NCBI GenBank assembly: GCA_949285665.1
Contig: CASDYC010000002.1
Location: forward strand, 1-56,995
Source: an uncultured bacterium
GTDB lineage: Bacteria; Bacillota_I; Bacilli_A; RFN20; CAG-826
Direction: 5' to 3'
DNA length: 56,995 nucleotides
The notes below the pieces were generated by a model. That model searched no databases, was not told where the DNA came from, and saw nothing but the letters and a program-made list of their open reading frames with translations. Each line of letters opens with the position of its first letter. Positions within the stretch are counted from its first letter, which is position 1. Positions 18,248-36,567 of the stretch are shown here, piece after piece. The position numbers and the translations under genes were made by a program.

Positions 18248-19369
18248 TTAATTTTTAATAATATCTTTATAAGATTCTTTAAAATATCTTCTTGAAGTAT
18301 TATTAAATTCTAAATTAAAATCAAATTTTCCGTTATAATCTTCTTCGCTATCAGTTACAAATATATAATATAGATTATCTGATTTAATTTCAGTAAAGAA
18401 TTCATATTCTGCATCATCATATCTATCATTTAAATATTCAACACTTACTTCAATTTGATTATCAGTATTATTTTTTATTAAATTAGATTCTATTTCAAAG
18501 GTGTATAATTCTTCTTTTCTAATTTTATCAATATATGAAAATTGATATTCACTTTCATCAATTTCAACTTCTTTTGAAACACTTCCAATATAATCTTCAA
18601 ATTCAATAATACATTCAATTTCATATTCACCAGTTTCAGCTTCTTTTTCACAAGTTATTGGATAATATTTATTATCTACTTTAATATATCCACTATAAAG
18701 CCATGTTTCTTCATCATCATCTTCTGCAAAATATGCATCTTCATTAATATATAATGAATAAATAACTACATCATTATTTAAAACATCACTTCTGACATTA
18801 AATGTTTTATTATTATATGTAAAATTATCTTCATAAGCTTTTAAATCGAAATTATTACTACTTGAAAATAAAGAATGTACACTTTCAGCAGCCAAATCAT
18901 ATGCATTAACGACTTTTGAAAAATAATTTTGATCTATATTATTATTGATGTTTTCTTTATTAAAACTAGATTTTTTTGAAAGAATAATTGGATTTAAAGC
19001 TTGGGTTGTAGAAGATTCATTTCCACTCATTAAAGAAACAATTTCAAAACTTAATAAATTAGCATCATTTTGATTTAAAATTGGAATTAAATTTCCAGTA
19101 TTTACACTAATTGTAGTATTCTCATTACCATCGTTATTTCCGTTTCTATTTAGTATAAAAGGAAGAGTACAAGCACAAACTAAAGCACCACCACCTAATA
19201 AAGAAGATAAAGAAATTAATAATGATTTATTTTTATTATTACTCTTTTTAATCTTTTTAGGTTTTTTGATTTCTTGAGCTTTAAATTTTGCTAAAACATC
19301 ATCACTATTTAATTTAATTTCATAATTAGATAATTCATCATGTATTTTTTGTTCGTATTTATCTAACAT
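18248..19369 (-). CDS. Membrane-anchored anti-sigma-like protein
   Basis: A 373-residue single-pass protein: a cytoplasmic N-terminus of about 50 residues ending in a Lys-rich stretch, one transmembrane helix (about 50-72), then a large acidic outer domain. This layout, with a 7-bp overlap of its start with the ECF sigma gene, is that of an anti-sigma factor. The outer domain is related to the neighbouring lipoprotein. No zinc-binding (ZAS) HxxxCxxC motif is seen in the N-terminus, so it is either a diverged anti-sigma or a sigma-controlled membrane protein. Confidence 0.65.
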   Translation of the reverse strand: MLDKYEQKIHDELSNYEIKLNSDDVLAKFKAQEIKKPKKIKKSNNKNKSLLISLSSLLGGGALVCACTLPFILNRNGNNDGNENTTISVNTGNLIPILNQNDANLLSFEIVSLMSGNESSTTQALNPIILSKKSSFNKENINNNIDQNYFSKVVNAYDLAAESVHSLFSSSNNFDLKAYEDNFTYNNKTFNVRSDVLNNDVVIYSLYINEDAYFAEDDDEETWLYSGYIKVDNKYYPITCEKEAETGEYEIECIIEFEDYIGSVSKEVEIDESEYQFSYIDKIRKEELYTFEIESNLIKNNTDNQIEVSVEYLNDRYDDAEYEFFTEIKSDNLYYIFVTDSEEDYNGKFDFNLEFNNTSRRYFKESYKDIIKN

Positions 19370-19902
19370 AATTCTTCCTCCTTTATTTCAGCTTTTATTT
19401 TTTTAAGTGAATTTGAATAAATATAAGTAACACTACCAAGTGGAATTTTTAAGTATTTTGATATTTCTTCAAAACCCCATTGTTCCATTACATGTAGGAT
19501 AAATATATTAAATTCTTTTTCATTTAAAATTTTTTCAATTCTTGAGGCAAGATCACTTTGGTTAACATGAGATACAATATTATCACTACTTTTTGAAATA
19601 TGTATTGTATCATCAATTTGAACATCTTTCTTTTTATTTGATTTTAAATAATCAAGAGATATATTTTTTGAAATGACCATCAAAAATCCTAATATATTTT
19701 CATTAGCTTTAATCTTATGAATATTATTTAAAAATCTAATAAATGTATCTTGTAGTAAATCTTCGGCTATTTCTTTATTTTTAACAAATGAATATATGTT
19801 AAAAAACAATGGTTTTTTAACATTTTCAAACAAAATATGAAAGGCAGACTCATTACCATTTCGATAAGATATTACTAAATCTTGAAGCTGTTTGTTTTCC
19901 AT
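19363..19902 (-). CDS. ECF-type RNA polymerase sigma factor
   Basis: A 179-residue sigma-70 family factor with only regions 2 and 4. Region 2 (about 10-80) includes KEIAEDLLQDTFIRFLNNI, the core-binding and -10 melting part. Region 4 (about 120-170) is an HTH with GFEEISKYLKIPLGSVTYIYSNSLKKIK. It is the first gene of an operon with the membrane protein behind it. Its promoter matches that of the downstream lipoprotein gene, which suggests autoregulation. Confidence 0.92.
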   Translation of the reverse strand: MENKQLQDLVISYRNGNESAFHILFENVKKPLFFNIYSFVKNKEIAEDLLQDTFIRFLNNIHKIKANENILGFLMVISKNISLDYLKSNKKKDVQIDDTIHISKSSDNIVSHVNQSDLASRIEKILNEKEFNIFILHVMEQWGFEEISKYLKIPLGSVTYIYSNSLKKIKAEIKEEELC

Positions 19903-20036: not shown

Positions 20037-21506
20037 TTAGTTATTACGACCAGATTGATTAATTAAATCTCTTAAATAATCTAGTCTATTTTCAAAGTCA
20101 TTAAAATCAACTAATTTAAATTCCCAGTTTGGAGATCCAATTGTACTTGGCGTATTCATTCTAGCAGAATTGTCTAATGACATAATATCTTGCATTGGTA
20201 AAATACAATAATTAGCTTTGTTATCTAAAGCAAGTCTACAAAATGAATAGGCAAAATCTGGATATGAATGATTAAGTCTTTCAAGTTTTGCTCTTACAGC
20301 ATTTCTTTCATCATCGCTAATTCGAGCAATCCAACCATTTATAGTTTCATTATCATGAGTTCCTGTATAAATGATTTGATTTTCTTTATCTTTTAAACCA
20401 TAATCATATTTATATGGCTCAAATGTAAATTGTAATATATTCATACCTGGGAAATTATAGTGATCTCTAAGTACTAATACTGAATCAACTAAATCACCTA
20501 AATCTTCGGCTACAATTTTAACATCTTTATATTTTGCAAATAATGTATCAAAAAATTCATAACCAGGACATTTTTCCCATGTTCCAACTTCGGCAGTTGG
20601 ACAACTTGCTGGAACTTTCCAATATGTATCAAATGCTCTAAAATGATCAATTCTAATAATATCAAATAAATTTGCATTAAACATTAATCGATCAATCCAA
20701 AATTTAAATCCGGTCTTTTTAATATAATCCCAGTCATATATTGGATTACCCCATCTTTGACCAGTTTTAGAAAAGATATCTGGTGGAACACCGGCAATAA
20801 AAGCAGGATTGTGTTTTTCATCTAATAAGAAACATTTTTGATTTTCCCATACATCAATTGAGTCAACACCAACATAAAATGGAATATCACCCATTATTTC
20901 AATACCTTTTGAATTAGCATATTTTTTAATATTTTCAAATTGTTTAAAGGCAACAAATTGATACCAAATTTCTCGATTAATTTTATCTTTATATCGGCCT
21001 AATTTAAATTTTTTATCATTAATCCATTCTTGTTGTTCTTTTGGCCATTCTGTCCACATTCTTAAATCGTTTAATTTTTTAAGTGTGACAAAGACAGCAT
21101 AATTATCAACCCATGGATTTTGTTTATGCCATTTTTCTAATTCTTTAAAATTTTCTTTCTTTTTAAAGTTTGAATAAGCAAGTTCGAGCTTCTTTTCTTT
21201 GTACGCTCTAACTTCTTCATAAAATACTTTATTAGCTGATTCGTTTAATTTTTCGGTTTTTGTTAATAGTTTTTCTTCTTTTAATATATCAAGAGAAATA
21301 TAAATTGGATCGATTGCCTTACTTGATAATGGTTGATATGGAGAATTACCAAATCCTAATGGATTAAGTGGTAAAATTTGCCATATTTTAAAATTAGCTT
21401 TATTTAAATCATCTATAAATCTATAAGCGTAACCTCCAAAATCTCCAATTCCATAATCACTTGGAAGGGAAGAAATTGCTAACAAAACACCAGCACATCT
21501 TTTCAT
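20037..21506 (-). CDS. malQ: 4-alpha-glucanotransferase (amylomaltase)
   Basis: A GH77 enzyme of 489 residues that disproportionates imported maltodextrins in the cytoplasm, releasing glucose. Catalytic residues are in place: nucleophile Asp287 (RIDHFRAF), acid/base Glu334 (VAEDLG) and Asp385 (GTHDNET). The N-terminal GVLLAISSLPSDYGIGDFG motif is typical. GGAGG precedes the ATG. It is the last gene of the glucan locus; only a weak all-AT hairpin (19977-20000) lies downstream. Confidence 0.97.
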   Translation of the reverse strand: MKRCAGVLLAISSLPSDYGIGDFGGYAYRFIDDLNKANFKIWQILPLNPLGFGNSPYQPLSSKAIDPIYISLDILKEEKLLTKTEKLNESANKVFYEEVRAYKEKKLELAYSNFKKKENFKELEKWHKQNPWVDNYAVFVTLKKLNDLRMWTEWPKEQQEWINDKKFKLGRYKDKINREIWYQFVAFKQFENIKKYANSKGIEIMGDIPFYVGVDSIDVWENQKCFLLDEKHNPAFIAGVPPDIFSKTGQRWGNPIYDWDYIKKTGFKFWIDRLMFNANLFDIIRIDHFRAFDTYWKVPASCPTAEVGTWEKCPGYEFFDTLFAKYKDVKIVAEDLGDLVDSVLVLRDHYNFPGMNILQFTFEPYKYDYGLKDKENQIIYTGTHDNETINGWIARISDDERNAVRAKLERLNHSYPDFAYSFCRLALDNKANYCILPMQDIMSLDNSARMNTPSTIGSPNWEFKLVDFNDFENRLDYLRDLINQSGRNN

Positions 21507-21523
21507 TAAAAATACCTCCTAAT

Positions 21524-23161
21524 TTATTTACTTAAAACAATACTAGAAAATGGTGGTAAATATAATTCACCATCTTGGCTTAATTTAGCTTTTTCATTAA
21601 TAATTTGAATTTCATCAACAATTTTATAATCAGAAATATTTTCAATATAATTTGTTAAATTTAATTCAATTAAATTATCAAAAATATTTGTTAATACGAT
21701 AATTTCTTTTGATTCATAACTAAATTTTAAGCCATAAATCGCACTAGATATTTTAACATAAGATACATCACCTTTTAAAAATAAATCAGCATATTTATTT
21801 CTTAAATTTAAAATCTTTTTATAATGATAAATTAAACTACTTGGATCATCTTTTAAGTCATTTGCCCCAAATTTAACTTGTAAATTTGTATCAAAATTTG
21901 CTCCAGGTGGATCAATTGTTTCATTTTCTTTATCACTTCCGCCCCAAATCATATGTAATCTTCGATTTGCATCTGTGTTTGATGTACCTCTTGTTCCAGC
22001 AATTCCAATTTCTTCACCATAATAAATAAATGGATTACCTGGAGATAAAAGATATAAACTTGCAACTAATTTTAAATATTGACTTTCGTATTCTCTTCCA
22101 GAGAAATATCTTCCCATCCGATCCATATCATGATTTGATACAAAGAATGAAGCATTAGTTTCACTATTTGATTTTCTTATAGTATTTGTAAATTCAACAA
22201 GTTGTTCATTTAAGACTGAAATATTTTTTGTATTAATACTACTTGCAAATCCTGGATTATTTCCTTGAGAATACTGGAAAGCAAAAAATGAATTACCAGT
22301 GGCAGAGTAATTTTCAATAGTACTTTGATCACTCCATGCTTCTCCAATAATATAAACATCATCTTTTACTTCTTTTGCACAATTTCTAATATATTCAAGC
22401 ATTTCAATATTTTTTGCAGAACTTTGATAATAATAAGTTGTGGCATCAAGTCTAAATCCTTTTATTCCTTTATTTAACCAAAAAGTAATTATATTTTTAA
22501 TTTCACTTCTTACGTTTTCATTATCTAAATTTAAATCTGGCATTGAAGAATCAAATCTAGATTCATAATATAAACCTTGAACACTTGATTGTGTATAACC
22601 AGTATTTGGTATAGTTGTCCAATTATAATAATCATAATATTGATTATAAACATCGTTATTTCTATGAGCATTTAAAGATTCAATAAACCATTTATTACTA
22701 GTTGAAGTATGATTTAAAACTAAATCAATAATTATATCAATATTATAATCTTTGGCACTACTAACTAATGATTCAAAATCTGCCATCGTACCATAATCTT
22801 CATCAATATTATAATAATCTATAACATCATATTTATGATATGAATTACTAGTCATTATTGGACATAACCAAATTCCTGAAATTCCTAATTCTTTTAAATA
22901 AGGTAATTTTTCTTTAACCCCATTTAAATCACCAATTCCATCATTATTTGAATCATAAAAACTATAAACAAATATCTCATAATAAGCACCAGAATTATTA
23001 TCATAGACTTGAGATATTTCTTGATTAGATGGAGAATAATCAATAACTCCATCATCTGTTGTATCATCGCTATTTAACGATAAAGAGGTTGTGTCCTCAC
23101 CACAACCTCCTAATAATCCAATAATAGCGAGAAATGTAATAAATAAACTTACTTTTCTCAT
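21524..23161 (-). CDS. Surface alpha-amylase lipoprotein (GH13)
   Basis: A 545-residue secreted alpha-amylase anchored by a lipoprotein signal (LGGC, Cys20). The GH13 motifs are complete: DLVLNH (about 145-150), GFRLDA with nucleophile Asp239, IIGEAW with acid/base Glu274, and SNHD with Asp345. The N-terminal calcium-like loop SNNDGIGDLNG is at about 71-81. I chose the ATG at 23161, because it begins the signal peptide and has AAAGG upstream; the longer frame overlapping malG is unlikely. It should cut starch-derived oligosaccharides at the cell surface for MalE. Confidence 0.93.
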   Translation of the reverse strand: MRKVSLFITFLAIIGLLGGCGEDTTSLSLNSDDTTDDGVIDYSPSNQEISQVYDNNSGAYYEIFVYSFYDSNNDGIGDLNGVKEKLPYLKELGISGIWLCPIMTSNSYHKYDVIDYYNIDEDYGTMADFESLVSSAKDYNIDIIIDLVLNHTSTSNKWFIESLNAHRNNDVYNQYYDYYNWTTIPNTGYTQSSVQGLYYESRFDSSMPDLNLDNENVRSEIKNIITFWLNKGIKGFRLDATTYYYQSSAKNIEMLEYIRNCAKEVKDDVYIIGEAWSDQSTIENYSATGNSFFAFQYSQGNNPGFASSINTKNISVLNEQLVEFTNTIRKSNSETNASFFVSNHDMDRMGRYFSGREYESQYLKLVASLYLLSPGNPFIYYGEEIGIAGTRGTSNTDANRRLHMIWGGSDKENETIDPPGANFDTNLQVKFGANDLKDDPSSLIYHYKKILNLRNKYADLFLKGDVSYVKISSAIYGLKFSYESKEIIVLTNIFDNLIELNLTNYIENISDYKIVDEIQIINEKAKLSQDGELYLPPFSSIVLSK

Positions 23162-23168
23162 ACTTTTA

Positions 23169-24077
23169 TTAACCTTTAACAGCTCCTCCGGTAACACCAC
23201 TTACATAGTATTTTTGTAAGAACATAAATAATAATGTAATTGGAATAGCAATAACAACTGCGGCAGCACAGAATTGTTGCCAATATGTATTTTTATTTTG
23301 ATAACTACCAATCATTTGATTTAAAACCGTTGCAACAGTACCATTATATGGATGTAATACATATAAATAACTTGCTGTCATAAAGTCACCCCAAGGAGCC
23401 ATAAATGCAAGTAAAGCTGTATAAACAATAATTGGTTTTGAAAGTGGAACAATAATTCTAAAGAATATTTGAACTTGATTTGCTCCATCAATCATGGCTG
23501 CTTCATCAATTGATTTGGAAATTGTATCAAAGAAACCTTTTGATACGTAATATCCCATTCCAGCACCGCCGGAATAAATAATAATAAGAGCGATTAAATT
23601 TTCTTGTAAACCAACTAATTTTGCTAATTGATAAAATACAATTAAGGAAATAAATCCTGGGAACATACCAAGAATTAAGATAATTCTCATCATTAATGTT
23701 CTTGATTTAAATCTACATCTTGAAAAAGCATAAGATGTAAATAATGTTAATAATGTTGAAATAATACAAGAGAATATTGCAACAATTAATGTATTTAAGA
23801 AAGTCATTCCAAAGTTAACTGGATTTGGATATTTAAGATCTCCATAAACTCTCCATTCACCAACTGTAGCATCTAAAACTCTATTATTAAATAAATTAAT
23901 ATAATTATCAAATGTCCATCTATCAGGCCAAAACTTATGTAAACCAGTTAAACCAGCACCATCATAAGCACCTAATGATTGAAGGAATAACCAAACAATT
24001 GGAAGAAGCCAAATTACACATAAAACTACTAATATAATATAAATAAATATATCAGCGATAATTCTTCTAGTTCTCAT
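23169..24077 (-). CDS. malG: Maltodextrin ABC permease MalG
   Basis: Six-helix permease of 302 residues, the second membrane subunit of the maltodextrin importer. The EAA loop reads DEAAMIDGANQVQIFFRIIV, as in MalG. The C-terminus ends in VSGVTGGAVKG, the usual MalG tail. Its start overlaps the malF stop in ATGA. Confidence 0.95.
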   Translation of the reverse strand: MRTRRIIADIFIYIILVVLCVIWLLPIVWLFLQSLGAYDGAGLTGLHKFWPDRWTFDNYINLFNNRVLDATVGEWRVYGDLKYPNPVNFGMTFLNTLIVAIFSCIISTLLTLFTSYAFSRCRFKSRTLMMRIILILGMFPGFISLIVFYQLAKLVGLQENLIALIIIYSGGAGMGYYVSKGFFDTISKSIDEAAMIDGANQVQIFFRIIVPLSKPIIVYTALLAFMAPWGDFMTASYLYVLHPYNGTVATVLNQMIGSYQNKNTYWQQFCAAAVVIAIPITLLFMFLQKYYVSGVTGGAVKG

Positions 24078-27000
24078 TGAAATTCATCCTCCCTTTGAAC
24101 AGCTCCTAATCTTGAATACATAATAAGTGAGAAGAATGCACAGATTAAGAATATAAATAAACCTAATGCGGAAGATATGTTATATCTACTTCTATCACCA
24201 GTAGTTAATGAATATAACCAGTTAATTAACAAGTCAGTTTCTTTAGCATCAAATAAGAAGACACTATTTGTAACTTCACCTGTTAAGAAGAATATAACGT
24301 TGAAGTTATTAATATTTCCAACAAATGTTGTAATTAAGCTTGGTCCGGTAATAAAGAACATGTAAGGAAGTGTGATCTTGAAGAATTGAGTAACTGGACC
24401 TGCTCCATCAATTCTACTTGATTCATATAAATCACTTGGAATGTTCATTAAAATACCACTACACATTAACATTGTATATGGAACACCAACCCAACAGTTA
24501 ATAAGAATAACCATAACTTTTGTAAGATTTGGATCTTTTAAGAATGGTATTTCATTTCCGGTTCCAAGAAGCGAGTTAATTGGCCCTTGCGTCGCGAATA
24601 TATTTGCAACAACCATCAATGAAATAAATTGAGGAATAGCAATTGTTATAACAAATATTGTTCTCCAAACCTTTTTAAGTTTAATAGATTTTTTGTTTAT
24701 TAATAAGGATAAGACAATTCCTAAGAAATAGTTTGTAAATGTTGCAAAGAAAGCCCAAATAAGAGTCCATAACAACAATATACCAATTGTGTAAGGAATT
24801 TTTTCAGCACCATAACTTGTTTGCCAAATGTTCTTACCTGTAAACATTGCAATGAAGTTTTCAAGACCAATCCAATTAAATAATTGAGGATAAATTGTTG
24901 TACTATCATAATTTGTAAAACCAATTAATAGAGAACAAATTAATGGGAATATAGTAACAATTACAGCCCCAACAATTGGTAAGAATAAGATTACTCCAGA
25001 GAATTTATCAGTCAATAATGAGTTAACAGTCTTTTTAAATGGTTTACATTGACCACAATATTCTTCTTCTTGATATCTTGATTTAAAATCATTAACTCTC
25101 TTATTTAATCTTGCAAAGACATAAATATCTGCTAATTCTTCAAGTAATGCATATGGAATAGTTTCACGATCTTCTATTTGACTAAGATCAAATTTTTTAA
25201 CACCCATTTTTTTAGCGACTATTTTTTTGATCTCTTCTAAACTCATTCCTTCATTTTTCTTAGAAATAGTATAATTTACGATATTTCTTGCTCTATCAAT
25301 TACATTTTTATAAGAAATAGCAACTGCTTTTGCAACTTCTCTTGAACATGTAAAGTTAGCGACAATATTACTTGTTGCATAAGCAACATTAAGAGGTCTA
25401 GTAAAATCATATGTTTCAACCTTTTTATTTACTACAAGCGATCTCTTATAAGCGCTTTTTGCTTGTTGTAATTCCTCACTTTGCATACTAGCGATCAATT
25501 TATCACTTTGTAGTGAATTATATTGACCATCAAGTTTATTAATTTTAAGTTGATAACTTTCTTTTAAAGATGCAATATCTTTATTAAGTTTAAGTTTTAA
25601 ATTGTATTTGTCAGCATCAATAGCATTTGGATCATTTTCCAAATCTACTTTATCTTTTCCATAATTTTCTTTAAGCTTTTCAATTTCTGATTTTAGTTCG
25701 ATTTTTAAGTTTTTAATTTCACTTAAAATATCATTCTTTTTATTAAATATTTTTGAATATTTTTCTTTAATTTCATTAATTTTTAAATTGTAAGCTTCTA
25801 ATTTTTCAGCTTCAGATTTAAATTCATTAACTTCATTAAATGTAGTATTCTTTTTATCTAAATTAAAGAAACAATTTATAACATCAACTTTTTGTTTTGC
25901 AACATTACCGTATGCGTTATTAAAATCTAAATAAGTTCTATAAATGTTATATTTATCATATTCGAAGTGATAATTCTTTTCTTCTAATGAAAAATCTTTC
26001 TTGAAGCCATCTCTAACTTTAGAATTGCTTGTTAAGGATTTATTTAATTCTTCAAGATAGCAAACATAATATTGCTCATTTACATTTAAGCCTTCATGAT
26101 TGTTATTAATGAGTTTTACTAAATTAATATTTGCTTGATAAATATTCTTTTTAATAAATAAACTAACATCTTTAGAATATTTTTGAAGAATACTGGCGTT
26201 CCAAACTTCATAATTAAATGAATTAGAAACAATTAATTTTGGTTCTGATATATTAAACAATTTGAAACATTCATCAATATTTTTAATATTAAGTAGCTTT
26301 ATTAATTCAGCATTATCTTCATTTTTAGAAAATTCTTCAAATAATTTAACTAATTCAGCATCATATGATTCTTTAACGCTATCTTTAGTTAATTGATGTT
26401 TTACTCCTGTAAAATGCTTAATAGAGATAACTAATTTATTAAATAATTTTAATTCAGCAAATTTATTTTCTTCGTTAACGCCGTAGTAATTATTAATATT
26501 AGAAACAATATTAGCTTTATTTAATTTCTTAAAATCAAATAATTTTAAAATTTGTAAACCGTCTTTTTCTTTATTGAATTTTTTAATTTTAGAAATATTT
26601 TTACTTGATTTATCTTTTAAGAATGATTCAAAATCTTTATCAAAATTATCAACAATTAATTTACTTTCATAATTTTGGCTAACAAATAATTTATTGAAAT
26701 TATTAATATAAGATAAATATAAGTTTAAAATATTGTTAGCTTCATTTAAATTAATTCTATAAAGACTGCTAATTTCAAATAATACTTCTCTTTTTGAAAT
26801 TTGTTTCAAAGTATTTCTATTAAAATCAAAGAACTCTAATACTTTATTTTTTGTTTCTAAATTGAAAGATTTTGGAACATTATTATATGAATCAACAAAC
26901 TTTTTAAAATTATCTTCAAATGTAGCTAAAAATAGGTCTGTTTTTTCTCTTTCAAGACAATTTTTCTTATAGAAATTGTAGTAATTTAAATATAAATCAT

Positions 27001-28618
27001 ATAATGATTCTCCAACATTAGAATCAAAACTAAGTAAACCTTTTAATTTTAAGAATGTTGATTGTTTATCAAAATATAATTTAACTTTATATTTTAAATT
27101 ATTAAAATCTAAACCATTAAGAATATCTTTATTTGATAATTTTTGTAAAATACCTTCTTTATATTCAGCAATTTGATCCAATAAAGAATTTTTTAATAAA
27201 ATTACATTATTTTCTTTAATATCATTAATATTGAAAAATTTATCTTTTAATAAATCTCTTACATTAAAGTCTGCTTCAATATTGTTAGACTTTAGTAACT
27301 TATTAAATTTTTCAATTAAAGGTTCGACTTCTAATTTAATTACATTAAATTTATCATATAAATCTTTATAGGATGATTTATCTAACTTATAAATATATTT
27401 AAAGTTAAAGTTATAGGCCATTAAAATATCATTATTGATATTAACTTTTTTTAACTCATCACTTAAATATTTATAAACTACTTCTTTATATAAATCATTA
27501 ATTGTTAATTTTTCACCAAGTTCAAATTCTTTATCTTTTAAAGAATTAATCAACATTAAAAATGCATTATGTTGTTCTGGAGTAAAAGTTGATTTAATTG
27601 AATTTAATTTACTACTATCTTGAACAGCTAATTTAAATTTAATTTTAATATGAGATACTAAAGATTCAAAAACATTTTCGTTTAATAAATTAACTTTTTG
27701 TTGTTCATGTTTTTTGAAAAATTCACGATAAATTAAAGGAACTTCATAATACAAATTATTAAAATTCTTATATGATATTAATGAAGAAGCTTGTTTTGTT
27801 AAATTTAGATTATTTCTAAAATATTTATCATTATTAATGCAAAATAATCTTTTAACTTTTCCATTTTTATTAACTCTTACTTGATTTGCTAAATAATCAA
27901 GATTGTCACGCTCGAATAATTTAGAAACTTCTTTATAACCTTTTGAGTATAAATTTCCATATCTTACAATTGTATTACTGTGAGCAGCATTAATATTTCT
28001 ATACCATACATAAATAAATACTAATGTAAATAAAATTGCAATAATACCTAAAATAAGACAAAGAATACTATTATCACCAGGTACAATTTGTTGAATACCG
28101 GTTATTGGATTTTTATCAACATGAGGTCCAACAATACCTGGACCAGACATTCTATAAATATCATATCCGCCTGTTAATATCATATAAATGATATATAAAA
28201 CTTCAAAGGCAATATATAAAATACCATTTAAATATTGACGATGAGCTAATGAAGATGTTCCCATAATAACATAGGAAATTTTTCCATATATATCATCTTC
28301 TTTAAAATATCTATAAATTTTGACTGTTAAAAATTTATAGATACCAACAAAAATTCCAACAAAAATTTTAACAATACCTATTAAAATATTTAATAAAGCT
28401 CTACCAACGTCAATTAAAATAGACAATAAAAATTTACTAACTTTTATTGTTCCATTTAATATTCCATTAAAAATAACTTGATACCATTTAAGAGGTTCAA
28501 AATCCTCAGAAATAGACATCTTTTTTAAAGCTTCTTGGTCAATGTGTGAATTATTAATTGAAGAATTTTTAGTTTCAGTATCTTGTGTCAAAACAGAATT
28601 TGTTTTTTTGTTTTCCAT
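24074..28618 (-). CDS. malF: Giant maltodextrin ABC permease MalF
   Basis: A 1514-residue fusion-like permease, three times the usual MalF length. The N-terminus (about 45-215) holds several hydrophobic segments. A Lys/Asn/Glu-rich region of about 950 residues follows (about 220-1185) with no signal for export, helical throughout, with loosely repeated units of about 85-95 residues and a strong coiled-coil stretch at about 925-1070. A CxxC (about 1183-1186) precedes the true permease domain (about 1195-1510), which has six helices and the EAA loop ESSRIDGAGPVTQFFKITLP. The large region most likely lies in the cytoplasm near the ATPase. No frameshift is seen. A ribosome binding site GGTAGG precedes the ATG, after a terminator hairpin. 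Confidence 0.9.
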   Translation of the reverse strand: MENKKTNSVLTQDTETKNSSINNSHIDQEALKKMSISEDFEPLKWYQVIFNGILNGTIKVSKFLLSILIDVGRALLNILIGIVKIFVGIFVGIYKFLTVKIYRYFKEDDIYGKISYVIMGTSSLAHRQYLNGILYIAFEVLYIIYMILTGGYDIYRMSGPGIVGPHVDKNPITGIQQIVPGDNSILCLILGIIAILFTLVFIYVWYRNINAAHSNTIVRYGNLYSKGYKEVSKLFERDNLDYLANQVRVNKNGKVKRLFCINNDKYFRNNLNLTKQASSLISYKNFNNLYYEVPLIYREFFKKHEQQKVNLLNENVFESLVSHIKIKFKLAVQDSSKLNSIKSTFTPEQHNAFLMLINSLKDKEFELGEKLTINDLYKEVVYKYLSDELKKVNINNDILMAYNFNFKYIYKLDKSSYKDLYDKFNVIKLEVEPLIEKFNKLLKSNNIEADFNVRDLLKDKFFNINDIKENNVILLKNSLLDQIAEYKEGILQKLSNKDILNGLDFNNLKYKVKLYFDKQSTFLKLKGLLSFDSNVGESLYDLYLNYYNFYKKNCLEREKTDLFLATFEDNFKKFVDSYNNVPKSFNLETKNKVLEFFDFNRNTLKQISKREVLFEISSLYRINLNEANNILNLYLSYINNFNKLFVSQNYESKLIVDNFDKDFESFLKDKSSKNISKIKKFNKEKDGLQILKLFDFKKLNKANIVSNINNYYGVNEENKFAELKLFNKLVISIKHFTGVKHQLTKDSVKESYDAELVKLFEEFSKNEDNAELIKLLNIKNIDECFKLFNISEPKLIVSNSFNYEVWNASILQKYSKDVSLFIKKNIYQANINLVKLINNNHEGLNVNEQYYVCYLEELNKSLTSNSKVRDGFKKDFSLEEKNYHFEYDKYNIYRTYLDFNNAYGNVAKQKVDVINCFFNLDKKNTTFNEVNEFKSEAEKLEAYNLKINEIKEKYSKIFNKKNDILSEIKNLKIELKSEIEKLKENYGKDKVDLENDPNAIDADKYNLKLKLNKDIASLKESYQLKINKLDGQYNSLQSDKLIASMQSEELQQAKSAYKRSLVVNKKVETYDFTRPLNVAYATSNIVANFTCSREVAKAVAISYKNVIDRARNIVNYTISKKNEGMSLEEIKKIVAKKMGVKKFDLSQIEDRETIPYALLEELADIYVFARLNKRVNDFKSRYQEEEYCGQCKPFKKTVNSLLTDKFSGVILFLPIVGAVIVTIFPLICSLLIGFTNYDSTTIYPQLFNWIGLENFIAMFTGKNIWQTSYGAEKIPYTIGILLLWTLIWAFFATFTNYFLGIVLSLLINKKSIKLKKVWRTIFVITIAIPQFISLMVVANIFATQGPINSLLGTGNEIPFLKDPNLTKVMVILINCWVGVPYTMLMCSGILMNIPSDLYESSRIDGAGPVTQFFKITLPYMFFITGPSLITTFVGNINNFNVIFFLTGEVTNSVFLFDAKETDLLINWLYSLTTGDRSRYNISSALGLFIFLICAFFSLIMYSRLGAVQREDEFQ

Positions 28619-28643
28619 AAATAATACCTACCTTAAAAAAAAT

Positions 28644-28670
28644 AGAAGGGCACAATATTTGTGCCCTTCT
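28644..28670 (-). terminator. Terminator between malE and malF
   Basis: A perfect 12-bp stem (AGAAGGGCACAA/TTGTGCCCTTCT) with a 3-nt loop; on the minus strand ATTTTTTTT follows. Placed between the binding protein and permease genes, it should stop most transcripts after malE and let a fraction continue, giving more MalE than MalFG. Confidence 0.85.
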
Positions 28671-28687
28671 AACAATATATTATCTAA

Positions 28688-30097
28688 TTATTTAACAACG
28701 CCGCCGAGAGCTCCAACTAAGTTGTTAACTGCTGTACTAGCTGTTTCTTCATCAACTGCACCGCTTACAGCAAATGCTGGTCCATAAGTTGAAAGTGCAT
28801 CCCATACTGCTTGAGCTGTAATAGCTTTTGCTTGTGAATGAGCAAATTTTGATTGAGCTGCTAATGCTTTAGAAACTTCAGAGGATTTAACTTCATCCAT
28901 ATTAGATACTACAAGATTTGTAGGAATATAATTTCTTGTTTGATAGTGTAATAATTGGCAATCTTCAGCAGATAAATAATAACCAAGAAGATGAGCTGTG
29001 ACTGGTCTATTTGTAATTGATTTAACAATATAAACTTTATAACCATCAAAACCTTCTAATTGAGCGCCTTCTTTTCCATCATAAGTAACTGTTGGAAGTG
29101 GTGCGATACCTACTGTTTCATTAATTTCTTGATCACTGAATCCTGCAGTTTTCATAGCTGCTTTAATACCATCATAGTTATTCCATGAAATACCACCAAT
29201 TGTAGTTTCAGCAGAAAAACCATCTTGTAAATTTGCTTGAATATCACTACCTGTAGTTGATAATAATGTACCACTATAATCTGTGTAATATTTATTGATT
29301 GTATCACCAACTTTTCTAACACCTTCAACAGTCATATCAGTAGTTTGTGTGAAAGTTGTTGTTGTCATACCAGTAGCTGGATCTGTTGTAGTTTCAGCTT
29401 CAATCCAGAAATCTCCACCGTTGAGCCATAACCAGTTACAAACATACCAACCTTCAGCCATTGGGTAATAGAAATTCATATTGTTTTCTTCAGCAATCTC
29501 TAAAATCTTATCTAAAGATCTTGCGTCAGTTTCGCTTATTAATTTTTTATTATAAAGTAAAACTTGAGCATTACCACTAACTGCAGAATAACCATATAAA
29601 TTTTCACCAATTGTAACAGCTTCTACTGCAGTTTCAAGAATTTCATCTTCAATAAGATATCTTAATCCACCTGGTACAGGTGATAAGAAGTTAGAACCAA
29701 TAGCATTCATAACTTGGTCATCAGCAGAAAGCATTAAATCTGGTGCTTCATCTAAATCTGCTTGTAATGCTTTATAAGCATCAGCTTCACCGACTTGGTT
29801 GTTGACTACAATTTCAACGTTTGCTAATTCTGGGAAAGCTTCTTTAAATTTTGTAATTGCTTCATTTAAGAATGTTTCATCTTCAGTTGAACAACCAACA
29901 GTTAAAGTTCCAGTTTCTTTTGCTGCTTCTGTGACGTATAAGTCAAGAATTTCATCTCTTTCCATATCTGACCAATTGACTCCACCACCATCAGTAGTTG
30001 TAGCAGATGTGCCATCTGTTGGTCCACATGATGCGAGTCCTACACCGACGATTAGGACTAATGCACTTAAAACACTAAGTTTTCTTTTGTTTAACAT
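28688..30097 (-). CDS. malE: Maltodextrin-binding lipoprotein MalE
   Basis: A 469-residue solute-binding lipoprotein (LASC, Cys24) that captures maltodextrin for MalFG. Family 1 features include LTVGCSTEDE at the mature start, a conserved AYKALQADLDEAPDLMLSADDQV stretch, YGYSAVSGNAQVLLYNKKLI and a C-terminal region with paired helices. The start is taken at the ATG at 30097, which has a GGAGGAG ribosome binding site and gives a proper signal peptide; the longer frame lacks both. It has its own promoter with a cre-like site. Confidence 0.93.
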   Translation of the reverse strand: MLNKRKLSVLSALVLIVGVGLASCGPTDGTSATTTDGGGVNWSDMERDEILDLYVTEAAKETGTLTVGCSTEDETFLNEAITKFKEAFPELANVEIVVNNQVGEADAYKALQADLDEAPDLMLSADDQVMNAIGSNFLSPVPGGLRYLIEDEILETAVEAVTIGENLYGYSAVSGNAQVLLYNKKLISETDARSLDKILEIAEENNMNFYYPMAEGWYVCNWLWLNGGDFWIEAETTTDPATGMTTTTFTQTTDMTVEGVRKVGDTINKYYTDYSGTLLSTTGSDIQANLQDGFSAETTIGGISWNNYDGIKAAMKTAGFSDQEINETVGIAPLPTVTYDGKEGAQLEGFDGYKVYIVKSITNRPVTAHLLGYYLSAEDCQLLHYQTRNYIPTNLVVSNMDEVKSSEVSKALAAQSKFAHSQAKAITAQAVWDALSTYGPAFAVSGAVDEETASTAVNNLVGALGGVVK

Positions 30098-30158
30098 TAT
30101 TATAATTCTCCTCCCTAAAATCAATCTATATAAGATTGACTTACATAATGTTATTAAT

Positions 30159-30287: not shown

Positions 30288-31991
30288 TTACTCTTTAATT
30301 ATTATAAAACCTTCTTTAATAAATTTATTTTCTTGGAAATTAAATGATATTATTGGTTTTTTATTTAATTTATCTAATGATACTTTTTCATTATTTGGAT
30401 TAACTATTAATTTATATACTTCGTCTTTATTATATCTAGTTAAAATAAATAAATTATCGTTGTATTCGTATTTAATTTCTCCGGATTTAATAACTTCATT
30501 ACTTTTTCTAAAATTAATTAATTTCTTAGTTAATTTTAATCTTTTAATATCCCAAGATTTTTCATCCCAGTTAAACATTTTTCGACATAATGGATCATAA
30601 CCTCCATTTAATCCAACTTCACTTCCATAATATAAAAATGGCATTCCAATATTCATTATTAATATAGATAAAGCAATTAAAAACATATTAGAATTATTTG
30701 CAAGAGTTTCAAATCTATGAGTATCATGATTTTCAATTTGATTCATCATCATCTTATTAGTATTTAAAGTATAAAATAAAAATCCATTTGTTAATCTGCT
30801 AGCAAATTCTTTTGCATCAATATCTTTATAAGCTAAAAAATGAACTAAAGGTTCATAAAACTTATAATTCATAACACTATCTAGCATATCTCCTTGGGTA
30901 TATCTATTGGCAATTCTCCAGTTTTCTCCAATTATAATACAATTAGGATTTAATTTTTTAACTTCACTTCTTATTGCTCGATGTAATTTAAAACTTAATT
31001 CTTCACTAACATCTAATCTCCAGCCATCGATATTAAATTTTTTAATATAATGAGTGACAACACTTGTTATATATTTAATTACTTCATCATTTGAAGTATT
31101 TAATCTAGGCATATTTTTTACATTTGCAAAGCACAAATAATTAATATTAACTGAATCAACATTATCTCCATTAATCATGAACCAATTAAAATATTTTGAT
31201 TTTTTACCATTTTTAATAACATCTTTAAATATTTTTGATTCACTAGATATATGATTAAATACCCCATCTAAAATTATTTTTATATTATTTTTGTGTAATT
31301 CATCAACTAATAATTTAAAAGTCTTTTCATCACCAAAATGAGGATCAATTTTAAAATAATCTAAAGTATCATATTTATGATTTGAATTTGATAAAAAGAT
31401 CGGAGTTAAATATAAACAATTAATTCCTAAATCTTTAAAATAGTCAATTTTATTTAATATACCAAGTAAATCTCCGCCTCCAAAACTGTTAGATTTTGGA
31501 TCTTGATTTGGTTTTAAATTGATATAACTTAAATCTTTTTTATAATTTCCAATATTAAATCTATCAGGGAATATTTGATAGCCTATTGTGTCTTTACACC
31601 ATTTAATTTCTTTTAAATAATCACCTTCAAAATTTGCTTGATACTCAAATCTTGATAAATGAGATTTTGAATAATCATATTCTTTTTCAAAACCATTTTC
31701 TGAAAAATAATATGAAGTAAATCCATCACTTAAATAAAAAATATAACCAACTCGATTATCATTAACATCTTTATTAAATACATAATAATCAAATAAATTA
31801 TCACTATATTTTTTAATCATTACTTCTTCATTTCTTTTTTCTTTTAAATAATGATCGTATTTAAAAGAATAAATAATTTTAACTTCTTTTAAATCATCTT
31901 TTTTAGCTCTTAAAATAACTGTTAAATTATATAAACTTGAAAAATATGCCATATTTGACATTGGAATATGCAAAATTGAATTTAAATCCAT
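30288..31991 (-). CDS. Neopullulanase/cyclomaltodextrinase-type GH13 enzyme
   Basis: A 567-residue cytoplasmic glycosidase (no signal peptide) that should hydrolyse imported branched or cyclic maltodextrins. An N-terminal domain (about 1-125) precedes the GH13 barrel, as in the GH13_20 group. Motifs: WCKDTIGYQIFPDRFNIG, DGVFNH (about 242-247), GWRLDVSEE with Asp327, IIGENW with Glu356 and NHDTHR with Asp423. An AAGGAG ribosome binding site precedes the ATG. It lies between pulA and malE on the same strand. Confidence 0.9.
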   Translation of the reverse strand: MDLNSILHIPMSNMAYFSSLYNLTVILRAKKDDLKEVKIIYSFKYDHYLKEKRNEEVMIKKYSDNLFDYYVFNKDVNDNRVGYIFYLSDGFTSYYFSENGFEKEYDYSKSHLSRFEYQANFEGDYLKEIKWCKDTIGYQIFPDRFNIGNYKKDLSYINLKPNQDPKSNSFGGGDLLGILNKIDYFKDLGINCLYLTPIFLSNSNHKYDTLDYFKIDPHFGDEKTFKLLVDELHKNNIKIILDGVFNHISSESKIFKDVIKNGKKSKYFNWFMINGDNVDSVNINYLCFANVKNMPRLNTSNDEVIKYITSVVTHYIKKFNIDGWRLDVSEELSFKLHRAIRSEVKKLNPNCIIIGENWRIANRYTQGDMLDSVMNYKFYEPLVHFLAYKDIDAKEFASRLTNGFLFYTLNTNKMMMNQIENHDTHRFETLANNSNMFLIALSILIMNIGMPFLYYGSEVGLNGGYDPLCRKMFNWDEKSWDIKRLKLTKKLINFRKSNEVIKSGEIKYEYNDNLFILTRYNKDEVYKLIVNPNNEKVSLDKLNKKPIISFNFQENKFIKEGFIIIKE

Positions 31992-32012
31992 AAATAAAAC
32001 TCCTTAATAATA

Positions 32013-32043
32013 AATAAGTGAAGCACCATGTGCTTCACTTATT
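32013..32043. terminator. Strong hairpin between pulA and the neopullulanase gene
   Basis: A perfect 14-bp stem (AATAAGTGAAGCAC/GTGCTTCACTTATT) with loop CAT. On the minus strand only ATTATTAAGGAG follows, so it lacks a solid T run. It may be a partial terminator or an mRNA-stabilising 3' structure for pulA. Confidence 0.6.
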
Positions 32044-32084
32044 CTACTATATTTAATTAATAATTAAATTATTTATTTTTATTA

Positions 32085-34757
32085 TTATTTTGAAACAACA
32101 ACAATTTGACAAGATGATAATTTACTATTAGCCGATAATGTTAGTGTATCTAAATTGTCAGCTAATACACTTGAATAACCTGATAAATCAAGTGTTTTTT
32201 CACTAGCACTTCTTGACATAATAATGACTCTATATTCTTTATTATTATATTTTAAATTATAATCAATATAAGAATTATCACTATCATTAAAGCTAAGAGA
32301 AGCTTTGATATCATCAGCATTATCTAATTGGAACATTTCATTATTAACTTTTAAAGAAATAAATTCTTTATATTGTTCCATAACGCTTGGATAATCAATT
32401 AATCTTGAATAATCAAGTTCATTAGTTTTATATGAAGATTCATATGAATTACTATCTAAACTTCCATCTTCTTTAACTTTAGTTCTTAAGAATTCTTCAC
32501 CAGCTAACATAAAACTAACACCTTGAGAAGTAAAGATAATACCATTACTTAATGTTGATAAATTTGATAATAACTCAATATTATCATCATTTGCCATTGC
32601 AACACTTAATTGTAATTTATCAAATAATGTATTGTTATCATGAGCCGAGACATAGTTTACAGTCTTATTTGGATCACTTGTAAAGGATGCGGTTTTTCCT
32701 TGAATTGCATCTTTAATACTACTTGGTAAACTACTTGTTAAACTTGTTGCCCAACCAGTTGTTAAAGAATCAAATACACTACCTTTAATTCCATCTCTAA
32801 CTTTATCATTAAATGCACCATAGCCATTAAATTTACCTAAATTAGCTTGAAGTGCAGCATCAGTTGATGTTAAGCCACTTGTTCCTGCATTCCATGGTTC
32901 TCCATAAACAACAATTTCAGGATTAATTGTTTTTAAATTAGCAACTAATTCATCCATTGTTTCAATATCATGAAGTCCCATTAAGTCAAATCTAAATCCA
33001 CCTAATTTATATTCACTAGCCCAAAATTCTGTGGAATCTATCATAAATTTTCTAAACATTGGCATATCACTTGCTGTTTCATTACCACAACCAGAGCCAT
33101 CTAAGACTTGACCACTTGTACTATATCTAAAATAATATCCTGGAACTAAATAATTAAAGCTTGATGTTTCTAATGAATTAACATGGTTATAAACAACGTC
33201 CATAATAATATTAATTCCAGCTTCATTATATTTCATAACTAAGTTTTTAAATTCTTTAATTCTAATGTATCCATCAAATGGATCAGAAGAATATGAACCT
33301 TCAATAACATTATAATTTAAAGGATTATAACCCCAGTTAAATGATTTATTAACTTCGTCATTTGCTTGGTCAAATAAAGGAATAATTTGAACAGCATTTA
33401 CACCTAATTCTTTAATATGGTCAAATCCTGTTTTAACAGTTACTTGATTTTCAGTGTATGTTGTTCTTTCTTCGGCCATACCATTAAATAATAAACGATT
33501 AGCTTCACTTCCAGTCCAAGATTCACTTGCAGTAACATCTGCAACATGAGTTTCATAAACTACTAATTCTGTATGTTTATATGGTTTAACTCTTACTTCA
33601 TCCCAACCTTCTGGATTAGTTTTACTAAAGTCAACAATCATTCCTCTTAAGCCATTAACACCAGCTGATTTTGCATATGGATCAACTAATTCTTGGTTTG
33701 TATATTTAGAATTTGTAACAACATATGTGTAATATTGTCCTTCTAAATCGCCATCAACTTTAACTTCATAGACACCTTTTTCTGTGAGTGTCATATCATA
33801 TTCTTTATAAGTATCACTACCTTTTGTAGCATCAACAGAGGTTGGAGTTCCATTTTCATATAATCTAAGTTTCATAGATTTACTGCCAGGTGCCCAAACT
33901 TTAAATGTTGTTGATTCTTTTGAATAAATTGCACCTAATTCTCCATCATATGTGTAATTTTGATCAAATGAATCAGTTTTAAATAATGCATTTTTATCAA
34001 CATCTGCAGTTAAAATAGTTCCACTTTCAAATGTAACTTCTACTTTGTAATCTTTTTTGAAATCTGGTTTTGCATCAAGAGTAATTCTAACAGCATTCCT
34101 TGGTTCAGTTGTTGATTCAGCTATTTTTACATCATTTTCATATAATTTTACATTTGTAAAATTAGTATTTGTATTAAGAACAACTAAATCTTCTCTCGTG
34201 AATCTAGCGCCTAAGATTGTATCATTATATAAAGCATTAGTTGAATCATAAACGCCTTCCCAAGTAGAAATAATATAGACATGTTTTACTTCTTTTTCAT
34301 CAGCAGTAAAATCAGAAAATGCAAAGAATTGATCAGAGGCAACATCTTTATCTTCCCAAGTGTCTCCACCTTTTCTAACAATAAAACCAACTCTATCTTC
34401 AAGCCCAGTAATTTGACTTAATGGATAAGAAGCAATTGCACCAAATTCATCTTGGCCATTAAATGCAAAGGCACCCTCATATCCTAATCCTTGATTTGAA
34501 TCATCAACAGTCCATAACCAAATATCCCAATCACTATAATCATTATCATCTCTATGATAATGGATTTGGAATGATGGTTCATCATAAACTGGTGGTTCTA
34601 TAATTTCAATTGGTTTTGTATCAGTTGTGGTTGTTGTAGTTGTGGTAGTTGTAGTTGTAGTTGTATTACTACTTGTTTCATCCCCAGTAGGGCCACAACC
34701 TGTTAATAAGCCAACACCAAGAAACATACTACAAAATACTAAAATAGATTTTTTCAT
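32085..34757 (-). CDS. pulA: Type I pullulanase lipoprotein
   Basis: An 890-residue surface debranching enzyme cutting alpha-1,6 links in pullulan and starch. The lipoprotein signal ends LTGC (Cys21). A linker with 14 consecutive Thr (32-45) leads to a CBM41-like starch-binding domain (about 60-165), then an N-terminal immunoglobulin-like region and CBM48 (about 270-385), and the GH13_14 barrel. The type I signature NWGYNP is at 474-479. Catalytic residues are Asp591 (GFRFDLMG), Glu620 (VYGEPW) and Asp707 (SAHDNN). AAGGAG precedes the ATG. It is 47 bp downstream of msmX. Confidence 0.95.
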   Translation of the reverse strand: MKKSILVFCSMFLGVGLLTGCGPTGDETSSNTTTTTTTTTTTTTTDTKPIEIIEPPVYDEPSFQIHYHRDDNDYSDWDIWLWTVDDSNQGLGYEGAFAFNGQDEFGAIASYPLSQITGLEDRVGFIVRKGGDTWEDKDVASDQFFAFSDFTADEKEVKHVYIISTWEGVYDSTNALYNDTILGARFTREDLVVLNTNTNFTNVKLYENDVKIAESTTEPRNAVRITLDAKPDFKKDYKVEVTFESGTILTADVDKNALFKTDSFDQNYTYDGELGAIYSKESTTFKVWAPGSKSMKLRLYENGTPTSVDATKGSDTYKEYDMTLTEKGVYEVKVDGDLEGQYYTYVVTNSKYTNQELVDPYAKSAGVNGLRGMIVDFSKTNPEGWDEVRVKPYKHTELVVYETHVADVTASESWTGSEANRLLFNGMAEERTTYTENQVTVKTGFDHIKELGVNAVQIIPLFDQANDEVNKSFNWGYNPLNYNVIEGSYSSDPFDGYIRIKEFKNLVMKYNEAGINIIMDVVYNHVNSLETSSFNYLVPGYYFRYSTSGQVLDGSGCGNETASDMPMFRKFMIDSTEFWASEYKLGGFRFDLMGLHDIETMDELVANLKTINPEIVVYGEPWNAGTSGLTSTDAALQANLGKFNGYGAFNDKVRDGIKGSVFDSLTTGWATSLTSSLPSSIKDAIQGKTASFTSDPNKTVNYVSAHDNNTLFDKLQLSVAMANDDNIELLSNLSTLSNGIIFTSQGVSFMLAGEEFLRTKVKEDGSLDSNSYESSYKTNELDYSRLIDYPSVMEQYKEFISLKVNNEMFQLDNADDIKASLSFNDSDNSYIDYNLKYNNKEYRVIIMSRSASEKTLDLSGYSSVLADNLDTLTLSANSKLSSCQIVVVSK

Positions 34758-34804: not shown

Positions 34805-35917
34805 TTATTTAATTCTTTCTTCCGTTTCAGGATCAAAGAATAAAATTTTCTTAGTATCAAATCTCATTACAACATGTTGATGTAATGCAATTTGTTTTTC
34901 AGCAGAGAATTTAGCAACTAAATCATCTCCACCAAAATCAGCATGAATATAGTATTCATGACCTAATAATTCTGCAACTTTAACTTCAACATCAAAGCTT
35001 CCGTTTTCAACTTTATCACTTTGATGGACATCTTCTGGTCTAATTCCAATAATTACATCACTTGGAATGTCTCTGCCTTTAATTAATTCTTCTGGTAAAA
35101 CCAATTTATGACCATCAGAGAATGTAATTGTTCCCTTATCATATTTAACTTTAAAGAAATTCATACTTGGAGAGCCAATAAATCCAGCGACAAATAAATT
35201 ATTTGGTCTATTATAAATTTCAATTGGAGTTCCAATTTGTTGAACTTTACCTTTTGACATAACAACAATTCTTGATGCCATTGTCATAGCTTCGGTTTGG
35301 TCGTGAGTAACATAAATTGTTGTTGCACCCAAAGAATCATGAAGTTTAATAATTTCAGATCTCATTTGAACTCTTAATTTAGCATCTAAGTTACTTAAAG
35401 GTTCATCCATTAAGAAGACTTTAGCATTTCTTACAATTGCTCTTCCTAAAGCAACTCTTTGTCTTTGTCCACCAGATAAGGCTCTTGGTTTTCGATCTAA
35501 ATATTCTTCAATTTGTAAAATTCTTGCAGCTTCATTAACTCTACGGTCAATTTCAGTTTTTGGCATATGTCTAATTTTTAAACCAAATGCCATGTTATCA
35601 TATACAGACATATGTGGATATAATGCATAGCTTTGGAAAACCATTGCAATATCACGGTCTTTTGGAGATTTATCATTACATAATTCTCCATCAATATATA
35701 ATTCACCATTTGTAATTTCTTCAAGACCAGCAATCATTCTTAATGTTGTTGATTTACCACAGCCAGATGGTCCAACTAAAACAATGAATTCATGTTTTTT
35801 AATATCTAAATTAAAATCAAAGACTGCTTGGACGTTATTATCATAAACTTTATCAATATGTTTAAGACTAACATAAGGTCTTTCTATTGCTTCTTGTGTA
35901 ACTTTTTCTTTAGCCAT
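34805..35917 (-). CDS. msmX: Sugar ABC transporter ATPase MsmX/UgpC type
   Basis: A 370-residue ATPase that powers carbohydrate importers, here presumably MalFG. Walker A GPSGCGKST is at 49-57, Q-loop Gln95, signature LSGGQ at 147-151 and Walker B VFLMDE at 167-172. The regulatory TOBE/OB domain follows residue 240 and includes GIRPEDVH. Because malEFG has no ATPase of its own and this gene heads the cluster, it is the likely partner. AAGGAG precedes the ATG. Confidence 0.93.
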   Translation of the reverse strand: MAKEKVTQEAIERPYVSLKHIDKVYDNNVQAVFDFNLDIKKHEFIVLVGPSGCGKSTTLRMIAGLEEITNGELYIDGELCNDKSPKDRDIAMVFQSYALYPHMSVYDNMAFGLKIRHMPKTEIDRRVNEAARILQIEEYLDRKPRALSGGQRQRVALGRAIVRNAKVFLMDEPLSNLDAKLRVQMRSEIIKLHDSLGATTIYVTHDQTEAMTMASRIVVMSKGKVQQIGTPIEIYNRPNNLFVAGFIGSPSMNFFKVKYDKGTITFSDGHKLVLPEELIKGRDIPSDVIIGIRPEDVHQSDKVENGSFDVEVKVAELLGHEYYIHADFGGDDLVAKFSAEKQIALHQHVVMRFDTKKILFFDPETEERIK

Positions 35918-35997: not shown

Positions 35998-36567
35998 TTA
36001 ATTATTTGAGTTAATTTTTAAATATAAATCAAATATTAAAGCATTTTTATAATTTTTAATATCTAATTTAGTTATATCTTTAAACTTATTTAATCGATAA
36101 TCAAACGTATTTCTATGTACATATAAATATTTAGAAGCTAAAACACTATTCATATTTGCCTTTAAATAATATTTAGCAGTATTTAATAAATCTTTATCAC
36201 ATTGATTAAATAATTTAATTAATTCATCAGATAATATGTATATCTTATTTATATATGAATCAAAAATAACTTCATCTAAAGAATATAGACCACTTTTTCT
36301 TTTATCTATTAAATAATTTAATGCTAAATAAGAAATATTATTTAAATCAAAAGTTTCTAAAAAAATTAGATTAATATTTAAATCATTTAATAAAACATTT
36401 TGAATAATATCCAATCTAAAATAAAAATTTTCATCAGCCATTATAATTCCTAAATTGTTATTTTCGTATTCAATATCTAAATAATAAGAATATAAATTTC
36501 TAATTATTTCATCAAATTCTGTCTTATTTAATTTTTGATAAGAATAAAATAAGTAATACTTAATCAT
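35998..36567 (-). CDS. PucR/CdaR-type HTH regulator
   Basis: A 189-residue protein ending in an HTH_30 domain (about 125-187): LLNTAKYYLKANMNSVLASKYLYVHRNTFDYRL is the PucR-type helix-turn-helix in which long helices read paired sites. The first 120 residues show no known sensor domain. It lies directly upstream of msmX on the same strand and may control the glucan locus (inference). There is no ribosome binding site; a TAAAAT lies exactly 6 nt upstream of the ATG. Confidence 0.8.
   Translation of the reverse strand: MIKYYLFYSYQKLNKTEFDEIIRNLYSYYLDIEYENNNLGIIMADENFYFRLDIIQNVLLNDLNINLIFLETFDLNNISYLALNYLIDKRKSGLYSLDEVIFDSYINKIYILSDELIKLFNQCDKDLLNTAKYYLKANMNSVLASKYLYVHRNTFDYRLNKFKDITKLDIKNYKNALIFDLYLKINSNN

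Follow-up and report, generated by a model that had tools for sequence, protein, structure and literature searches.

Why should a maltose permease subunit carry almost a thousand additional residues on the cytoplasmic side of the membrane? MalFGK2 is a textbook importer, and its well-known extra domain, the P2 domain of MalF, is periplasmic. The window, i.e. the whole stretch of 56,995 nucleotides analysed, is an entire contig of a bacterial genome (G000; 1.03 Mb, 98% complete), and hosts an intact maltodextrin operon in which the malF frame (24074..28618, minus strand) encodes 1514 amino acids, starts with ATG and has zero internal stops. The frame is preceded by AAGGTAGG, and starts 69 bases downstream of malE. 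Domain searches identified, on the same strand, a 4-alpha-glucanotransferase (MalQ) and a GH13 amylase lipoprotein (20037..23200), a MalG of ordinary length (302 aa; 23169..24077), a MalE-type solute-binding lipoprotein (28688..30124), a neopullulanase-like GH13 and a pullulanase-like enzyme (30288..34757), and a MalK ATPase of ordinary length (370 aa; 34805..35917) with OB and TOBE domains. A strong terminator-like stem-loop (13 pairs and a T-run; 28643..28671, minus strand) separates malE from malF, and malF output may therefore be below that of malE.

The preliminary description, made from the letters alone, had taken the protein for a genuine MalF with a normal permease part, and this was borne out. 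The BPD_transp_1 domain was detected at residues 1300-1500 (56.7 bits versus a curated cut-off of 26.4), and E. coli MalF aligns with residues 1215-1499. The EAA-type coupling motif (E..x DGA ... I..LP) is present and aligned to that of E. coli MalF; residues E1399, D1404, G1405, A1406, I1415 and P1418 are invariant across 17 long MalFs. Neighbouring genes for MalE, MalG, MalK and glucan enzymes are present. The NCBIfam equivalog PRK10999 scored 143.6 bits, below its cut-off of 392; the model, 520 positions long, fits MalF of the E. coli type, P2 domain included, and the protein is accordingly filed as a MalF-type permease, not as a PRK10999 equivalog. Judging from the operon, the substrate would be maltose or maltodextrin.

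Comparison with 56 relatives revealed two matching blocks, at residues ~30-210 and ~1190-1514, which are joined directly in relatives of 500-550 aa. Residues 1-208 and 1191-1514 have their counterparts in the ordinary MalFs (500-550 residues) of the same order, and the 982 residues in between (209-1190; 25049..27994, minus strand) are an insert. The charged, helical, cytoplasmic region reported at first was thus confirmed in nature and corrected in size, from about 950 residues to 982. On the same strand, residues 1-111 (28286..28618) form an N-terminal tail and a long hydrophobic or amphipathic helix, found in ordinary relatives too; residues 112-208 (27995..28285) form the TM1-TM2 hairpin, placed by superposition of a relative's structure model (L096) on E. 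coli MalF, and its segments keep their lengths of 42 and 26 columns in almost every relative; residues 1191-1514 (24077..25048) are the permease core, corresponding to E. coli TM3 onward and including BPD_transp_1. The hydrophobic segments once described as extra, ahead of the insert, belong to this N-terminal block, which 500-550-aa relatives share and which is normal for the order. In almost all of a set of 64 proteins the hairpin pieces measure 42 and 26 residues; the core measures approximately 320-360, while the TM2-TM3 loop measures either 15-16 residues (33 and 39 in two cases) or 188-982.

The TM2-TM3 loop of E. coli MalF faces the cytoplasm. As residues 1215-1241 of the window protein align to residues 72-98 of E. 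coli MalF, where TM3 starts, the variable loop is the TM2-TM3 loop, and is cytoplasmic. No hydrophobic segment occurs in the insert, where the highest 19-residue Kyte-Doolittle mean is 0.88, versus 1.4-3.1 in TM segments. The insert is low in GC and rich in Lys and Asn. Its reading frame contains no stop, against 45-222 in the other five frames and an average of 105 in shuffles, so the openness initially noted over 4.5 kb is not due to chance. The window protein and E. coli MalF (2r6g chain F and related entries) are alike in TM1-TM2, from TM3 onward, in the EAA loop, and in having MalE, MalG and MalK as gene partners. Yet, in E. coli the extra domain is P2, periplasmic and located between TM3 and TM4, and the TM2-TM3 loop is short, whereas the window protein lacks P2 and carries its 982-residue domain in the cytoplasmic loop instead. 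Ordinary MalFs of Bacilli and Clostridia (~450-550 aa, with a BPD_transp_1 core) share with it the N-terminal block, the TM hairpin, the operon and ~50% identity in the core, but have a TM2-TM3 loop of 15-16 residues.

A core search extended to 279 genomes of the order sorted MalFs into two main length classes, ~500-550 and ~740-1089 residues. In a tree built on the N-terminal block and the core, the insert being left out, 35 long MalFs, that of the window included, fall into one clade (support 99/98), which comprises every long MalF except L089. The clade spans 11 genera in three families, the window's own counted; named records among the carriers are draft genomes of uncultured Bacilli and of Erysipelotrichaceae. 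The window MalF, the insert of which exceeds the 80 residues set as threshold at the TM2-TM3 site, has L059, L040 and L047 as nearest neighbours on the insert-free tree. The other 34 members carry inserts of 202-547 residues at the same site, that of the window being the longest; their total lengths are exemplified by L059 (742 aa), L096 (962 aa), L115 (1042 aa) and L044 (1068 aa). Around long MalFs, genes follow a conserved order, MalE-MalF-MalG-GH13. Many uncultured gut bacteria thus carry a smaller form of the arm. The fusion sought in related genomes was therefore found, at the same site, and under selection there (see below). Genes misassembled or split in relatives were also looked for and not found, save for one frameshifted copy. 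This is L095 (1-2581), from an Erysipelotrichaceae draft genome, apparently a short member of the clade and in fact a long MalF whose insert is interrupted by a frameshift; the halves of the protein are read in two different frames and contain HHTYDKYNDFHS. The frameshift is probably an error of the draft assembly. Because the long MalFs form a single clade, and L095 is only a frameshifted long copy, a single origin of the insert within the clade is the simplest account. The 188-aa insert of L089 (genome G233) sits at the same TM2-TM3 site, but lacks the motif of the clade and belongs to another MalF lineage; it is independent of, and unrelated to, the inserts of the clade. Four further MalFs (L043, L087, L088 and L090) are long in a different way, with 215-313 residues preceding TM1 instead of the usual ~70-120; in L043 this region contains extra hydrophobic segments.

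By pairwise search the window insert is an orphan, since in the 279 genomes of the order it matches only itself; its homology was recovered by profile and motif. The inserts comprise two sequence classes and singletons. A motif of the form [YF]x[KR][YF]Nx[YF] occurs in 33 of the 36 inserts, versus a mean of 0.27 in shuffles, and in none of the 64 sequences outside the inserts; the count is not fully independent, since seven of these 36 inserts had served to recognise the motif in the first place. Inserts begin with IxSGYxNYRIxxF or LxSAyDnYqIxH and, in nearly all cases, end with xG[KRQ] immediately before the core. The window insert conforms at all three points (coordinates on the minus strand): the conserved start at residues 209-245 (27884..27994), which reads INAAHSNTIVRYGNLYSKGYKE... 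and includes INAAHSN, against the clade consensus IxSGYxNYRIxxFxxF; the signature motif YDKYNIY at 887-893 (25940..25960), in which N891 is invariant; and the conserved end YCGQ at 1187-1190 (25049..25060), in which G1189 is nearly invariant. In addition, residues 940-1061 (25436..25801), which include EEL..AKSAYKR, are homologous to the commonest insert class (hhalign probability 94.5, E 8e-8), and the match aligns LPTDK..KEE...AYKRD with LQSDK..SEE...AYKRS. Insertion site, start and end consensus, KYN motif and charged helical make-up are common to the window insert and those of the other long MalFs. What sets the former apart is ~500 additional residues without relatives: none was detectable for residues ~300-880 in the order-wide search.

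The database search of the insert advised at the outset yielded no Pfam, NCBIfam or PDB sequence family. Pfam and NCBIfam gave no match over cut-off inside residues 209-1190; a PDB sequence search gave none for the window insert, and for the profile of its relatives only matches of coiled-coil composition. These are NDC80/HEC1 (2ve7) and SMC3 (6zz6), weak at E values of 0.012 and 0.4, which are alike in charged coiled-coil composition and were taken as compositional, no shared domain being shown. Across 296 genomes of the bacterial class, the profile of the commonest insert class hit MalF and no other protein, and the notion of a mobile or shared module was accordingly rejected. Literature on cytoplasmic insertions in MalF offered no description of a large conserved TM2-TM3 domain, and the family is apparently undescribed.

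The fold was predicted for a relative. The AlphaFold2 model of L096 (mean pLDDT 77) was obtained from an alignment of 40 sequences. TM2 is predicted to continue as one helix to residue 247, to be followed by helices of 63-79 residues (273-335, 341-419 and 421-495) and by shorter ones returning to TM3; the insert is all helical, and how it packs is predicted less securely than that it is helical, because only a handful of the aligned sequences cover it. The model superimposes on the E. coli MalF structure over TM1, TM2 and the core, with Z values of 20-26, and the insert lies between them. When structures were searched with the complete model, MalF itself came up; permease matches occupy the lists, which are uninformative on the fold of the insert. 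Residues 105-1240 of the window protein, modelled from a single sequence, gave a poor result (mean pLDDT 36), the only stretch with pLDDT of 60-83 being a helical hairpin at ~928-1037 (25508..25837, minus strand), the counterpart of the L096 helices at 456-522. The coiled coil initially noted was recovered in this predicted hairpin, with arms at ~928-988 and 1002-1037. The degenerate repeats of 85-95 residues fared less well. Three units, unique to the window MalF, can be delineated within residues 498-771 (26306..27127, minus strand), at 498-588, 591-684 and 689-771, with mutual identities of 27-38%. Support is weak against locally shuffled inserts, 5 of 200 of which score as high (6 of 200 when the coiled coil is excluded); leave-one-out tests of the three units were not significant, and a profile built on them found no convincing further copy.

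That the window protein is a MalF of the long clade, with an additional all-helical cytoplasmic domain between TM2 and TM3, is very probable. What the domain does is a more delicate matter. The best overall explanation, which we advance tentatively, is that the clade has equipped MalF with a cytoplasmic arm for docking or clustering; the function itself, taken alone, is a possibility of about the same or slightly lesser standing. According to this view, the TM2 helix would run on into the cytoplasm, the chain would form long helices, arranged as a stalk or a bundle, and would lead back, via the conserved xG[KRQ] end, to TM3 and the usual permease core. The window copy is this domain enlarged to 982 residues by sequence particular to its lineage, perhaps with internal duplication. 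Standing beside the MalK ATPases, the arm could hold a partner near the sugar exit; candidates are a second importer, a glucan enzyme of the cytosol such as MalQ, or a regulatory protein. Partner and action we infer; a single shared partner is not obvious, since sequence classes differ strongly between sub-clades. A putative scaffold role remains plausible. Bacteria that devote up to 3 kb of a genome of ~1-2 Mb to the arm probably benefit in some way. A broader claim, that a new domain family confined to MalF in uncultured, genome-reduced gut Bacilli provides a helical arm of ~25-115 kDa per transporter, gathering sugar-processing enzymes of the cytoplasm or clustering importers at the membrane and so turning the importer into an organising hub, is speculative and on the unlikely side. 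In any case, a single origin combined with lengths from ~200 to ~980 residues offers a natural series for probing the role of the arm.

The arm may alternatively be a built-in regulator, touching MalK or the MalF/MalG gate and altering the transport rate upon a cytoplasmic signal. The maltose transporter of E. coli is regulated in trans by EIIAGlc, and the regulated complex is known (4jbw); the arm emerges from the membrane on the side where MalK sits. No clear HPr kinase was found in genomes of family f1, where alternative control would be useful. However, f3 carriers have HPr kinase and long MalF together, a coexistence which also led to rejecting the arm as a substitute for HPr kinase. The insert as modelled consists of plain helices and shows no apparent ligand-binding fold, and the MalK of the window is normal in length and domains. 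We regard regulation as rather unlikely.

No better placed is the hypothesis of a passive spacer, a tolerated helical region with little function other than keeping itself folded and soluble, grown by duplication and drift in low-GC genomes. Lengths ranging from 202 to 982 residues, the little similarity between sub-clades, and the low-GC, Lys/Asn-rich make-up of the window copy speak in its favour. Selection speaks against it. In four close pairs of relatives, dN/dS is 0.065-0.11 for the insert and 0.014-0.089 for the core, a pattern indicating that inserts are, in these relatives, under purifying selection; together with the motif kept across 11 genera, and with retention in reduced genomes of ~1-2 Mb, this argues against a neutral load. 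The insert is less constrained than the core in each pair, and in three of the four its rate of evolution is several times that of the core, as would be expected of a loose spacer no less than of a docking arm. An arm devoid of function seems, on these grounds, doubtful, though the middle part of the window insert may yet be such a spacer.

A tether to a cell-shape or surface structure, as envisaged in the preliminary description, is highly improbable. Long helical arms can bind cytoskeletal filaments. Yet, being cytoplasmic, the insert cannot reach the surface, and in the window genome the MreB profile matches a single frame of 621 aa, which is most likely DnaK. Carriers, moreover, both have and lack penicillin-binding transpeptidases: PF00905 was not found in the window genome, 98% complete, and is absent from most of family f1, while f3 carriers have it, so that the arm was also discarded as a trait of wall-less cells. 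The bacterium of the window is itself likely wall-less. Thin-walled and wall-less species have been predicted among uncultured orders of Bacilli (PMC10868615), and the order of the window is presumably one of these. Least credible of all is an artefact of assembly or annotation fusing two genes or organisms in frame: the genus is represented by one assembly among those compared and the middle of the insert has no relative, but both insert ends match the conserved ends of relatives in the right order, no stop breaks the frame over 4.5 kb, long DNA repeats that could mislead an assembler are absent, synonymous-site GC in the insert resembles that of neighbouring genes, and many independent assemblies contain long MalFs at full length.

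Some minor features of the locus may be added. At lower coordinates than the operon listed above, a small sigma-70-like protein (19363-19902) overlaps a 373-aa protein without any Pfam match, the two spanning 18248-19902. At the other side, a 189-aa protein with a PucR-type HTH_30 domain (35998-36567) adjoins malK, as its homologues do in L091 and L140, and is a candidate regulator of the operon. Finally, GC at third codon positions is 0.23 in the permease core (24077-25048), versus 0.09-0.12 in the rest of malF and 0.10-0.14 in neighbour genes.
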